From positions 372,001-436,000 of the forward strand of contig BDSL01000079.1 in assembly GCA_003116995.1 (NCBI GenBank): a stretch of 64,000 nucleotides of DNA. The letters are read 5' to 3'. Numbering within the stretch: the first letter of the stretch is position 1; each line of letters opens with the position of its first letter. The notes under the pieces are model-generated. The model saw nothing but the letters and a program-made list of their open reading frames with translations, was not told where the DNA came from and searched no databases. A program made the position numbers and the translations under genes. Positions 1 through 6,880 of this stretch are shown in pieces. Source of the DNA: Yamagishiella unicocca (lineage: Eukaryota > Chlorophyta > Chlorophyceae > Chlamydomonadales > Volvocaceae).

Positions 1-638
1 CCTTATGTACCGCGTGGTTGGGCATACCGTATTTATCGCACGGCCGCCAGCTGGCCGGGAGAGGTTCTACCTATGCACGCTGTGCGTCGCACCGGCCAGC
101 GATCTACCGAGGTTGCCAGCGGCCTGGTCTCGCAGCGGCGCACTCCCCCCCTTGAATGGACCCACTGGGTGGTGACGGCCAGCCACCATTGCCACCGCCA
201 CCACCACTACCTACACCACCACTACCACCACCGAACACGACCATCACACCCACTTCAAGTTGCCGTAACCCACGGCTTCCCCAGACCCCACTTCGGGGGC
301 CCTGTAGCGGCCGCCAGAAGTGAAGGGAGGCTGGAGGGCAGTGCTGGAGCCCACCGGGAATAGGGGCAGAACCGCCCACAGCATAAGGCCATCAGGGGCA
401 GCACTCCCCTCCCCTCCCCTCCTCTGCTCGGGTGGGTCGCGAATGAAGGGCTCAGTGGTGGTGCCCGGCGGCGGTGCAGTCCGGGTCGTCGAAGTCCACC
501 AGGCCGTCACAACTGCAGCAGGGGGCAGGGGTGCGGAGTTTTGACGGGTGCGTTACGGGGCCCGGAGGGAAAGGAAGGCACCCGTCTGTGTGTTCAATGT
601 GGGGGATGCAAGGGGAGGGCGCCACGCGAGTCCGCCAC
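1..638. other. 3' flank of the gametolysin-like gene, no gene seen
   Basis: No exon with good splice sites and coding character was found. The stretch holds a CCACC-rich simple-sequence patch at about 185-240 and otherwise GC-rich sequence. It lies just beyond the stop of the minus-strand gene, so part of it is probably that gene's 3' UTR. No TGTAA signal on the minus strand was spotted here. Confidence 0.4.
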
Positions 639-3600
639 TCACTCGTTGTCGACGGCGTCGTAGCAGGCCCCCCCCGTCTCAGTGGTCGACACGTAGCGGC
701 ACGCAGTGACAGTGGCCAGGCCCCCGCCAGTCACCCCGCCATGGTCGTCGGGGTTAGAAGGAGCCACGGATGCGAACCTGCGGGGCGAGGTGAGGGTTAG
801 GGGAGCGAGCGGGAAGGCGGGCGATGTGGACACAGCTGGCTGCTGGGAGGTGAGGGGCTTGGTTGTCCGCCGCGACGCCGCAATCCGGCACCCGGACATG
901 AAGGGAAACGAAGGGAGGCGGGGGCCACGGGAGTGGCAGTGAAACCCCCCCGAGCCCCGTCCCTGACCTCCGTATCCCACCCACCTGACCACGACCTTGG
1001 CGGCCTCATACCGGTACGACTCGCCTATGCGGGGAAGCAGCAGCCGTTAGCTACGGTGGCGGGGTGTACGGGGGTGATTAGGGATGATGACCGTACGCCA
1101 GAGCAGGTGTGCCGGCGCCGCAGCACGACTGCCTGTCGCCATAAACCTGGCTCACCTGCACCTACATACGTGCTTTGCTCCTTTCCCCCACCCACCCGCG
1201 CTCTCACCCAAGGGCCCGCTACGGCATTCTCCTCCTCCCTCCCTTCTGACTTCCCCCCTATGCACCCACTACAATTCCCATGTCGAGTTACCGGTTCTTT
1301 TATGTAACACCCCCCCCCCCGTCCCGACCCCACCTGGCTGCAGCAGCGCCAGCAGTCGGGTGGCCCCCGCCGTCTGCGTCCCCGCCACTGTGCCCGAGGA
1401 GTTGACCCAGTGCAGCGTCACACGGCCGTGTACGGACGCCGCCAGACCCGCGTCACCGCCGACGGGCATCCGGTACTGTCCGTACAGCGGCGGCGGCGCT
1501 ACGGCGGGCGCCACCACCCAGTTGGGCACCAGGAGGAGCAGGTTGGCTGGGTGGGTGGCGGCGGCTGGGAGCTGCGCGGGGGTGAAGCCGCCTGCGGGGA
1601 GAGGGCGGGGACGGGGGGGGAGGAAGCGCTGATGGAGGGGCTGGAGCGCGGGAAGGGGAGCAGCTGGGGGGAACCCGATCTCCGGGAAGGGGGGAGTCGG
1701 GGGGTGTGATGGGGGGCCGCGGGAGTGGGGGGGAAGGGAGGGAGACCATAGCTCCTGCTCCTGCAGCAAGGTTCAGTCGCTGCCACCTAGCCACGCACCC
1801 AGGAAAGTGTTCGTCCGGTCCAGCCGCCTGGCGGGCTGCGAGAAGAGCAGCTTGTAGGAGTTGGGGCCGTTGAAGCAGCTGCGGGGGGGCATGGCGGGGG
1901 AGGGGGGGTGGGCCGAGCGGGGCGGGATGGGGGTGGGGCAATGTGGCCGATGATTGCTGACCCCGCCGCCCCTAATTACACCCGCCCTCCCCCCTCTGCT
2001 GGTGCGGTTGCCCGGGGCGGCGGTGCTCACCGGTACTCGCCCGGCTGGCTGGAGCCCATAGGGTCTGAGGGGTCCGTGGGGGGCTGGGTGCTGGTGGAGG
2101 TGGCGGGGGCCGCGGGGGGCTGGGTGGCGGGCTGCAGCAGCATGCTGGCGCCCATCTGGGTCAGGGACCACTGCAGCAGGCGGGTGCGGTCGGCCTGAGG
2201 GGGGGGCCGGAGCGGAGCGGGCGGACAGCGGGTCAGGAGGGTTGGGAGGGCAGGGGGGCCACGTTACCAGTCGGGACGGAGCCGCAGGTGGAGGCCCGAG
2301 GAGCCCCCCTTACCAGCGCCATGGGTGGCATGCTATGCGCGCAGCCGCCGTCATCACCACCACACCCGTTTCTTCTCCCCTACCCCAAAACACACACGCA
2401 CACACGCTGCCCACCTTGATCCACATGTCACAACCTGCGGACTCGTCGCAGCCGTAGCTGCCGTGCTGCTGCCAGGCCTGGCACAGAGGCCAGGAGCTGC
2501 TGGGCGGCAGTACCAGCATGCGGCGGCGGTAAGGGGACAAGTCCACTGCCAGGGCCTGCAGCGCAGGAGGCGGGGGCCGGGGTAGAGATGAGGGCAGGGA
2601 CGGAGGGGGCCGGTGATGCGCTCGTCCACCCACTTCCCGCGATCGCTACACCCCGGCCACCGCCAGGACCCGGGTTCAAGCCCCACCTGCTGCGCGTTCA
2701 GAGCGGCGTGTTCCATCCAACCCCACAGCTCGTTGGTCCCGCAGGCCCCCGTCGCGGGATCAGCGCTCCAGGGGGCGCCGTTGAGCCGCATTCCGTTGCA
2801 CGGCAGGCTGACATTCATGATGAGGACGTCCGACCGCTTCAGCCGTACGGCACCGTACGAGCAGGAGTCCCACAGGCGGTTGAGCGGCGTGTGCAGGTGG
2901 CTGCCAGCGGCGGGCCCGGGGGACAGCAGCGCAGCTCCAGGGGGGGGTCCGAAGAACACCTCTGACACGTCCTGGGGGGGTGCACCGGTTTGGGAGGGGC
3001 TAAAATTTGACGCGGGGCTCCCACCGAGGCCGTGCGAGTGGTTTGCCTGGCAGTTCGTCCGGCTGCCCTGCCCTGCTTTCCCCCCGCCCTCCCTCCCTGG
3101 AGCGCCCCCATCCCTGCCCCTCCGCCCCTCCTCTCCGCGCGCCTCACCCCCCGGGCCTACCTCTGCTGTCATGCCTCCCGCCACCTCCTCCCCGCAGACG
3201 CTGGTGACGACCCACACCACGGTCCGCAGCGCCAGCTGGCTGTAGCCCGTGTAGTACACCTGGCTGCTGGTGCTGGGTTCGCCGCCGAACGACACCGCCG
3301 ACCAGGCCCACACGAAGAGGGTGCCGGGCGCCCCGGAGCCCGTGGTTCCGGAGCCGGTGGCCCCGTACACCCAGCCGGACTGGTCCAGGTCCACATACAG
3401 CTGGATGGGGTCGCCTGGCGCCGGGGGTGGAGGGGGATTGTAAAACATACCCGTTTATGCGACGCGAGGAGGTTTCGAGGACGACCCGTGGATGCGAGAA
3501 AAAACAGTTTAGAACAGAGGGGGAGGGAGGGTGGCGGTATCAATGGGAGGGGCTGTCCTCTAATTGCTGCAGCTCCGGCCCTCGAGTGTTCTCCCTTCCT

Positions 3601-4886
3601 TGGCTGGGGGCGAGGCGGAAGTGGAGCCGCCCTCCACTGCTAGGTAGCGGAGCATGTCAGACCGTTCACCCACCCACCCCTGGAGCGCTCTCACCCGTCT
3701 TGAGCTCGTAATCCGGCCTGACGACGTTGGGGCCGAGCACGAGCGTGTATAGCAGGGACTCCTGGTTGCGGGGGAAGGGGGGAACGATTGCAGGCCAGGA
3801 AGGTTTCATCAGGAGGCTCTGCACCCCCTTCCCTTTTCCATGCGCTCCCCTGGACCCCTCCCAACATCGCGGCACCCAAGGGGGGCCCTGCCTCCCTCTC
3901 CCTCTACGTGGGTACCCTTCTGTCCCTCCCCCCGCCTCGCTGTCACCAGCACCCGCGGGCGGCCCTGCCTCACCCCGGGCACATTCGGTGTGTACGTGCG
4001 AAAGTGGTACGACACCTGGCCGACCAGCTGCTGCCCCCGGCGAGGCGCATTGAGCACCACTAGCTTGCCTGGCGCCCGGGGGGGAGGGCGGGGGGGTGAG
4101 TGGGCGTGGACGGGGCACAGTCGTGGGCACAGTCCACAAACCCGCACGGCAATTGCAACGGCTTGTGCTACCTCCGGCCAACATATTACGAACTACTCAG
4201 CACCAGCACCTTCACTACCATCAATCCGCGCCAGCGCCAACTACTGTCCATCACCATTCCAAGCCCTCTAGACTGCCACGATCGAAAGCCCGATGTAGAC
4301 GCAGAGGTGCCCTGGGGAGCGGCGCGGTTGGACGTCCACACACATCCCGCTATACCTCCCCGGCTTGCTCAACTTGGCCCTTTTTCGTACAGATGTCGTG
4401 TGACTCGTCGCCCGCTCACGGGAACGCTCGTGGTGTGCACGTCAAAAGTTCGCTAATAATATTCTCGTATTTCACCGTTACGATAACAAGATGTGAAGCC
4501 AGGATTTACGTCGAGGATGCCTCATGTCGGTCAGCTCCCTCAACCAAACGCCGTCGCAATGGCCTCACAGCGCTGCATCCGTGACCGAGGACCTCATTTC
4601 CGGCCGACACTCTTTTTTGGAAAACTCCAACCGCCCCAGGCACTGTAACCAAGACCACGACAGCACCGGCGGATATTGCTTCATAGTACGTTGGTTTAAT
4701 AGCGCTGGCCCAACATGTGCATCAGCAGCAGAGCTTGTTTGGGCTCTCACCTTGAAACTGGACGATGTTCTGTGCGACTGTTGATTGAAGCGCCAGCAGC
4801 ACAATCCCAAATAGCTGATTCCATTTGCAGCTAGTCGAGCCATAAATCCGACCGCGAGGTGCTCCCCATATCCCTCCTCCCGCCAT
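639..4886 (-). CDS. Gametolysin/VMP-like (peptidase M11) secreted protein, predicted catalytically dead
   Basis: Eleven exons: 4886-4751, 4068-3974, 3761-3695, 3414-3185, 2971-2687, 2555-2415, 2194-2031, 1878-1799, 1591-1334, 1024-985, 777-639. They sum to 1635 nt (544 aa), and every GT-AG junction is phase-compatible. Residues about 20-38 (LFGIVLLALQ followed by STVAQ) look like a signal peptide. The M11 landmarks are visible: SVCGEE near 175, the DSCSYGAVRL block, LPCNGMRLNG, YGCDESAGCDMWIK near 318, the Met-turn-like SDPMGSS, CFNGPNSYKL near 373, and the LPA-type C-terminal beta region. Family members cleave hydroxyproline-rich cell-wall or matrix glycoproteins through a (H/Q)ExxHxxGxxH metal site. 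Here the aligned residues 330-340 read TQMGASMLLQP, so all ligands and the catalytic Glu are gone. An upstream in-frame ATG at 4988 is an alternative start; 4886 was preferred because it places the signal peptide nearer the N terminus. Family call is firm; loss of activity is inferred. Confidence 0.85.
1277..1310 (-). repeat. Dispersed intronic repeat, family B
   Basis: Reverse-orientation copy of a short repeat with core TTACATAAAAGAACCGGTAA. It lies in the intron between the exons at 1591-1334 and 1024-985 of the gametolysin-like gene. Related copies lie at 15171-15199 and 54817-54850. Confidence 0.6.
3471..3515 (+). repeat. Dispersed intronic repeat, family A
   Basis: The copy contains ACGACCCGTGGATGCGAGAA followed by an A-run and CAGTTTAGAA. 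It lies in the intron between the exons at 3761-3695 and 3414-3185 of the gametolysin-like gene, antisense to that gene. Other copies are listed separately. Confidence 0.65.
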
Positions 4887-6880
4887 TTTTGCTGCGCTCG
4901 TCCCGCCGGGTCCTCGTAAAGCGCCTCTTCCGTTGCGCCGTTCTAAGGCCTTGATCAAGTTAAAAACCTTGATATCACTGAAATGCATGGGATAGCCTCG
5001 AGGGCACGGACTACCAGGTTCAGTCGAGGCCGTCAAGGACCGCAACCCACACGTTGGGGAATGTTATATCAGTTGTGATGTAAATTCGCATTCATTCGGT
5101 AGGGAAAAACAAGTGCGGTGCCCGAAAGCGTTCTCTTGCTGCGGTCGACTTTCCTACCGAACAAAGAACGACTAACAGGCAGCCTGCAAGTCCCGCCCAT
5201 AGCAACGATGTGCACTCAATCCGTACTCACCGAAAGGAGTTCCAAGGATGACAGCGGCCACAAAATTTGCAAGCAAGGGCCCATCGATTTGAGCAGGAGG
5301 TTGAGCTTGGACGTCGGTAGCGGCTGTGTATCAGTATTTGGAATGGTGCCTTTCGGGGGTCACACCGAGGTCCCAATATCTATATCCAGGAAAGGCGTTA
5401 TGATGCCACTGATAGTAAGGCTCGGCGCGCGGGAGAGTGGAAAATTATGGTACCTTCCGAGCTGGTTGGCGACAGGTGCGAATGCCGCAGAACCTAATAT
5501 ACCCGGGTTCAATTACTGCTACCTATCTGAGAGCTAGTGTAATTACCTGCCCAGAAGGGTTAGCGTGGCGCTTGCACGACGGTTTGCAGGACCGCAGATT
5601 ACGAACGCGCATGCAACCGCTGAGTCAGGAAGTCCACTTGCAATCAGTTGTGTGTTGGCACGCCATCGCACTTGTACACGTATGAAACGGCGCGTGCTCG
5701 AAATAGCTTAGGCAGCTTGTCTTCCGCCACACAGAGGCTATAATGGGCTAGGCGTTGCTATTCGTCGCTACCTTACAAAAGCGTCGTCGTCGCAGCACCC
5801 CTCAAAACACTTCCAAGTGCAGGTTCGATAATCGCGCGACACGATTGTACGACGACCGGAGGTTTGCAACTGTGCATGCGTCGCAGTGCGGCCAGTGCCG
5901 CCTTACTCCCTGTCGCACAAAACGGCAAGCATCCCTTTCCAGCTGCGACTGCGGTCATCATCGAGTGTTTCAGGGGCGCCCTAATATTAATCGACGCGGT
6001 TTCGACCGTATTGGCGCCTCATGCCCGCGACACACACTTCCGATGCCGCCTCGTCGAACTCCGCTGAGCCCGACCTGCGAACATTGCGAACAAGCCCGTG
6101 AACCTCATATATTGCTGCTGCACTCATTTGCGCCCCATCCCCGACCGAATAGAGCCGGCCAGCCGCAGCCTGGTGCCGTGCGAGCAGAGGTGTTGCGGCT
6201 GGGTCGCGAACAGGCGCGGTCTTGAGGAGCCACCGCACCGGCATTGGGGCCCCGCAGGACGCGTCAAGACGTCGCCAGCGCCTCACAGTGCAGCCGCGTA
6301 CCCCACGTGCAGTGGCGCTCCCATGACGCCCAGCCGCCGTGCTGGAGGCACGGGATTCGCTCGTGGCTTAACTGGCGTTGCCGCTGCATGTCGCCGGCTG
6401 CCTTGCCTCAGCTTTGCGATTGTTGAGCCCTGGCTGGCACGTCCCGCATACGCTGCTCAACTGCCCCTGAGCAAGTCGCCGTCATCCTCGGAGTCCTAGT
6501 GTCGTACAAGTGAGGCTCATGCGGACAGCCTAAATCAGGCGCCGTGTCTCAGACTTTACGGCGCCGGTTGTTGCACCGGCGGAAAAGAGGCGACTGCGAT
6601 CACGAGGCGGTGGTGACGTGGTAAGGCGCATGGGGTCGGGGTTGAGTCGCAGCTTTGATCGCAGCTTCGCCCGCGACTCCTCGAGCGCCTCAACTTGGCC
6701 CTCTGCCCTCAGCCCTCTGCCCTCCGGAGCATTTGATTCATCCAGGCCCCCTGAGGCCTTATGCGCCCTCTGGCAGTGCGCGGCCAGCTCCTACCTCGCG
6801 GAGGGACATCCGAGGGACCCTACGCGAAGCCTAGCTCCAGCAATGGCCGCCCCAAAGAAGCTGCCCGCCCGGCTGGACGC
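4887..6880. other. Intergenic, lower GC, no convincing gene
   Basis: The stretch lies between the 5' ends/flanks of the first gene and the 3' flank of the second. It is markedly less GC-rich than the genes. The open frames are short, lack plausible exon borders and show no domain I recognise. It should contain the promoter and 5' UTR of the gametolysin-like gene just above 4886. No repeat or mobile element was recognised. Confidence 0.4.

Follow-up and report, generated by a model that had tools for sequence, protein, structure and literature searches.

Algal cells lose their walls before mating through the action of gametolysin, one member of a family that numbers more than 40 genes in Chlamydomonas (PMC8643629). 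Among the closest known parallels outside the algae are the inactive ADAMs (ADAM2, 11, 22, 23, 32 and others), which belong to family M12 and to another kingdom. ADAMs contain disintegrin domains, and most are anchored in the membrane. Dead metzincins are tabulated in PMC11266112 (ADAM2, 7, 11, 18, 22, 23, 29, 32 and unc-71); in that review the word gametolysin appears nowhere, and M11 only within the digital object identifiers of two references. OgpA of Akkermansia, annotated as M11, is an active O-glycopeptidase that retains the three histidines and the glutamate (PMC7518263). Chlamydomonas FtsHi is likewise an algal metalloprotease lineage that is reported to have lost its zinc motif and to be presumably dead (PMC8643629), but it belongs to the unrelated family M41. 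The gene described here lies on the minus strand, from 4886 to 452, of a 64,000-nucleotide stretch of the Yamagishiella unicocca genome (contig BDSL01000079.1, positions 372,001 to 436,000; hereafter the window). It is related to family M11, and sequence comparison strongly supports its belonging to an old, maintained lineage of pseudoproteases.

The M11 family (PF05548; Chlamydomonas gametolysin and the algal matrix metalloproteinases) and this lineage have in common the sequence of the M11 region, the cysteines, an anchor upstream of the zinc site, a CFNxP segment and an acidic DNDCDG tail. What distinguishes the lineage is that it lacks HExxH or QExxH as well as the third histidine, and that the methionine of the Met-turn is mostly leucine. 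The Pfam model matches residues 170-494 of the window protein with 51.5 bits (cut-off 21), and all nine relatives described below (E-value of 1 or better; best 5.3e-15; P0007, 46 bits). The other M11 copies used for comparison come from a search of the whole genome (133,378,104 bases in 1415 contigs), which gave 72 exon-level matches; 40 stretches covering most, not all, of these were fetched.

The gene model was read from the genomic sequence. It comprises 12 exons encoding 571 amino acids in a single open frame; all 11 introns are GT-AG, and there are no stops, frameshifts or broken splice sites. The initial annotation was right about the intact frame, while its 11 exons and 544 amino acids have been remodelled, so that its Thr330 becomes Thr338 and the other residues shift likewise. 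The features are as follows.

4751..4886, minus strand: exon 1, with the ATG, a splice donor and a hydrophobic, signal-peptide-like N-terminus, stretch FGIVLLALQSTV
3974..4068, minus strand: exon 2, start of the N-terminal beta domain, predicted to be OB-like; aligns with five of six relatives (P0004 begins later)
3695..3761, minus strand: exon 3, N-terminal domain, aligned to relatives
3161..3414, minus strand: exon 4, end of the N-terminal domain and start of the M11 core
2687..2971, minus strand: exon 5, upstream half of the M11 core, with invariant cysteines 221, 242 and 261
2415..2555, minus strand: exon 6, the portion of the M11 core that includes CxxWQQ, GCD and GCxxW
2421..2432, minus strand: anchor C321-x-x-W324, 17 residues upstream of the pseudo-motif
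2031..2194, minus strand: exon 7, former zinc-site helix and Met-turn region, without histidine
2126..2161, minus strand: pseudo zinc motif T338-A349 (TQMGASMLLQPA), which replaces HExxHxxxxxHA
1799..1878, minus strand: exon 8, CFNGPN..KL downstream of the Met-turn
1334..1591, minus strand: exon 9, C-terminal part of the M11 region
985..1024, minus strand: exon 10
643..777, minus strand: exon 11
452..512, minus strand: exon 12, stop codon and last part of the MopE-like CxxxxDNDCDGLVDxxDPDC tail, which intact paralogues also have

Exon 7 (2194-2031), flanked by GT-AG introns on either side, translates as ADRTRLLQWSLTQMGASMLLQPA, beginning ADRTRLLQWSLTQMGASMLLQPATQPP, and contains no histidine. 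The window protein reads TQMGASMLLQP, in an ungapped register, at the site that in the genome's intact M11 genes is HExxHxxxxxH or QExxHxxxxxH. This register is secure. The distance from the anchor, [CYFAS]-x-x-[WY], to the first motif position is 17 residues in nine of 14 intact seed exons (the other five do not have the anchor pattern) and in nine of the ten lineage proteins, the exception being Pleodorina, where a five-residue insert brings it to 22. In addition, hhalign placed HEIGHNLYLHHA on TQFGASLTLRPA without a gap (293 columns, 99.7%), with an intact profile made of three paralogue rows only, one of which has a stretch omitted. Of the residues that the initial annotation had listed as lost, the three histidines and the glutamate are indeed replaced, but the glycine position is not a lost family invariant because G, A, W, Y, N or R occurs at this site in intact paralogues. 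On the gene's strand no other exon or frame with HExxH or QExxH was found: [HQ]ExxH is absent from every minus-strand frame of positions 1-5200, the sole match in that interval being a plus-strand QEALH at 3810, and when the second half of an intron-split motif was sought, only patterns unlike it turned up.

The same loss is found in at least nine relatives from eight species. Each of three protein searches scored only about 8000 candidates sharing most words, and the nine are among the matches listed; no search was aimed at Volvox carteri, Gonium, Eudorina or organisms outside the volvocines, and absence from them is not claimed. The first search gave Volvox africanus (two entries), V. reticuliferus, Pleodorina starrii, Astrephomene gubernaculifera and Chlamydomonas incerta; a further one added C. 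reinhardtii CHLRE_05g232600, C. schloesseri and Edaphochlamys debaryana, whereas a search with a seven-row alignment returned the same six proteins and nothing new among the matches listed. None of the ten lineage proteins (the nine relatives and the window protein) carries any of the four zinc-binding and catalytic residues. The first histidine is replaced by threonine in eight and by alanine in two, the glutamate by glutamine in all ten, the second histidine by alanine in seven and by serine in three, and the third by proline in all ten. Gln339, Gly341, Ser343, Leu346, Pro348 and Ala349 are invariant within the pseudo-motif, as are twelve cysteine columns across the ten proteins. Four models, those of C. 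incerta, C. reinhardtii, C. schloesseri and Edaphochlamys, have only two histidines each over their whole length, and a three-histidine zinc site is therefore impossible anywhere in them. The window protein has 12 histidines and the Volvox proteins 6 to 11, with one invariant histidine column in either alignment. The Met-turn, initially described as kept, retains its methionine in the window protein and three relatives (P0004, P0005 and P0009); as a trait of the lineage it is not kept, since the other six of the nine relatives have leucine.

A tree was built from the region from the Met-turn onward (220 columns kept), with the ten dead proteins and nine of the genome's other M11 genes as rows; the rows L043, L035 and L016 are long, and the paralogue rows L031, L032 and L042 begin further upstream. 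The dead proteins fall on one branch (87/98, and 86% of 200 bootstrap trees), within which the window gene adjoins Pleodorina and Volvox (89/93). A single clade of dead proteins has moderate support from these sequences. The date cited in PMC8226300 for the split of the colonial clade from its unicellular ancestors is about 230 million years ago. If the single clade is right, the loss would be at least that old.

Neutral divergence from C. reinhardtii is 34% for C. incerta, 45% for C. schloesseri and 98% for Edaphochlamys (PMC8226300), and the corresponding protein identities within the lineage are 80, 76 and 44%. Neutral simulation at the same three distances gave mean identities of 0.496, 0.409 and 0.189, and at none of them did any of 300 runs remain stop-free. 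The observed identities are far above the simulated ones at all three distances, in a comparison that applied substitutions to the window's coding sequence under one crude base model, that is not a ratio of nonsynonymous to synonymous rates, and in which the relatives are gene models. Over its twelve residues the pseudo-motif has a mean pairwise identity of 0.71, against 0.51 over 484 columns. This excess over the mean column suggests that the new motif is itself held, unlike what decay would produce; 32 of 368 windows of equal length are as conserved as the motif, with comparable values for the acidic tail (0.70) and for the segment that follows the Met-turn (0.69). Simple decay is ruled out by the presence of the same motif in nine relatives. 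The suggestion of the initial annotation that this is a maintained pseudoprotease is therefore strongly supported: because the loss is common to the nine relatives, the twelve cysteines are invariant in ten of ten proteins and identity exceeds the neutral simulation, the gene is not to be regarded as a decayed one. Its further proposal, that the protein might be a regulator or a decoy that binds the matrix, is conjectural.

What such a protein might do is a matter of graded likelihood. It is about an even call, in my judgment, that the product is a secreted, catalytically dead pseudoprotease which probably attaches to hydroxyproline-rich glycoproteins in the wall or matrix and leaves them uncut. 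Loss of catalysis is predicted from the replacement of the three zinc-binding histidines and the catalytic glutamate, and secretion is suggested by a hydrophobic N-terminus in six of the ten models (window, P0001-P0003, P0005 and P0009; simple hydropathy scan). By analogy with gametolysin, whose substrates are recorded as proline- and hydroxyproline-rich proteins (PMC8643629), the dead core would bind hydroxyproline-rich glycoproteins of the wall or matrix, and the former active-site helix, with its invariant Gln339, Gly341, Ser343, Leu346, Pro348 and Ala349, may now be a structural or ligand-contacting element. Several points weigh against this reading. Four of the ten models (P0004, P0006, P0007 and P0008) have no hydrophobic N-terminus, perhaps because they start too late. 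Confidence in the AlphaFold models is low (mean pLDDT, the per-residue confidence score, 60.3 for model 1 and 56.3 for model 2), and Foldseek with model 1 found no match under an E-value of 0.001. The relatives are predicted proteins and hence stop-free by construction, and lineage members with an intact site may exist beyond the approximately 8000 scored candidates.

The N-terminal domain (4068-3161 in the window) bears a weak resemblance to the OB fold in both structure models, and the rows shown by the structure search with model 2 are OB-fold matches confined to this domain. A profile of the domain matched none of the 40 other M11 stretches of the genome, which may omit upstream exons; a regular expression for an OB-like prodomain found no match in them either, which says little. 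At the other end of the window protein, the acidic tail gives a weak match to MopE, under its cut-off, and MopE also matches weakly in seven of the nine relatives (where a score is given, it is under the cut-off). A sequence search against solved structures, with the alignment, returned only a short stretch of Teneurin-4 (E-value 0.01), again on the tail. A C-terminal tail of the CxDGxDNDCDG type is frequent in the algal M11 family, being found in 14 of the 40 fetched stretches in addition to positions 452-512 of the window. As a replacement metal site specific to the lineage it is ruled out, the same tail being present in those 14 other stretches.

A less probable but tenable alternative is that the protein is a secreted regulator, whose dead core or N-terminal domain would engage an active M11 protease, or the propeptide of one, and so damp wall lysis or shield the wall from it. 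A narrower and decidedly speculative scenario would have volvocine algae possess a dedicated pseudo-gametolysin kept since before the Chlamydomonas/Volvox split, in which an OB-like N-domain joined to a dead metzincin core would act as an endogenous, TIMP-like antagonist or substrate shield limiting when and where gametolysins dissolve the wall. It is improbable to a further degree that the protein remains enzymatically active, its old cleft housing another kind of metal site or a different chemistry, for instance around Gln339 and Ser343: the invariant Gln, Gly and Ser of the motif could mark a new active site, and the acidic tail, given its weak resemblance to MopE, could bind calcium or another metal, but no known catalytic motif was recognised, the two histidines of four members exclude a three-histidine zinc site there with only one histidine column invariant, and a tail that occurs in 14 of 40 M11 stretches is no substitute peculiar to the lineage. 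A decaying pseudogene, or an error in a gene model that rests on no transcripts and misses another exon with HExxH, is most improbable, given that no minus-strand frame holds HExxH or QExxH and no plausible split half was found, that the same replacement motif recurs in nine proteins predicted from eight further species, that the reading frame stays open through all 12 exons and 12 cysteines are invariant, and that none of 300 neutral runs was stop-free at any of the three distances.

Among the other M11 copies of the genome, 32 of the 40 fetched stretches have a contiguous HExxH or QExxH, and the copies with an intact motif are presumed active on that ground. In L035 the two halves of the motif lie on separate exons; in the frames read, L046 and L031 showed the second half alone, and L028-L030 show only an HEFG start. 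L026 (G000:C65:250500-256000) reads LQQSLHNLGIYH, in which the catalytic glutamate has become glutamine and the other positions of the QExxH type are kept, where similar copies have QESLH. In L032 (G000:C93:257500-262500) two histidine positions are replaced, IQGYSLGLSRS against IQGHSLGLSHS in its close neighbour L031 (C93:250000-255000), and this is a second, separate and probably recent change of the site. L009-L015 (C49, C55, C156 and C11), of the QExxH type, apparently have an intron within the zinc motif: in all seven, sequence unrelated to the motif comes after QExxHN[YF]G, with GLWH further on in the five read. M11 matches of equal score also occur on the small contigs C292, C1087, C187, C311 and C1211, with C3 and C134 nearly equal; the equal-score matches are a multi-copy or unresolved repeat. 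In the window itself there are 34 open reading frames of at least 230 amino acids, one of them part of the gene; ten were submitted to Pfam and none gave a match.

Pseudo-metzincins are already known; no earlier description was found of this algal one, a conserved line of dead M11 proteins marked by a fixed motif of its own. The literature search, outside which most subscription papers lie, returned nothing pairing gametolysin with pseudoenzyme or naming CHLRE_05g232600; the available parts of PMC8643629 and PMC6313938 contain no dead M11 protein, and the zinc-site figure cited in the former may already show the window gene. In this lineage a new, fixed motif took the place of the catalytic site, apparently in one event, and has persisted from unicellular species to Volvox. 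Counts of genes based on PF05548 overcount algal proteases. With a member, CHLRE_05g232600, in the tractable species C. reinhardtii, the lineage offers a genetic test of the roles of M11 proteins besides cutting.
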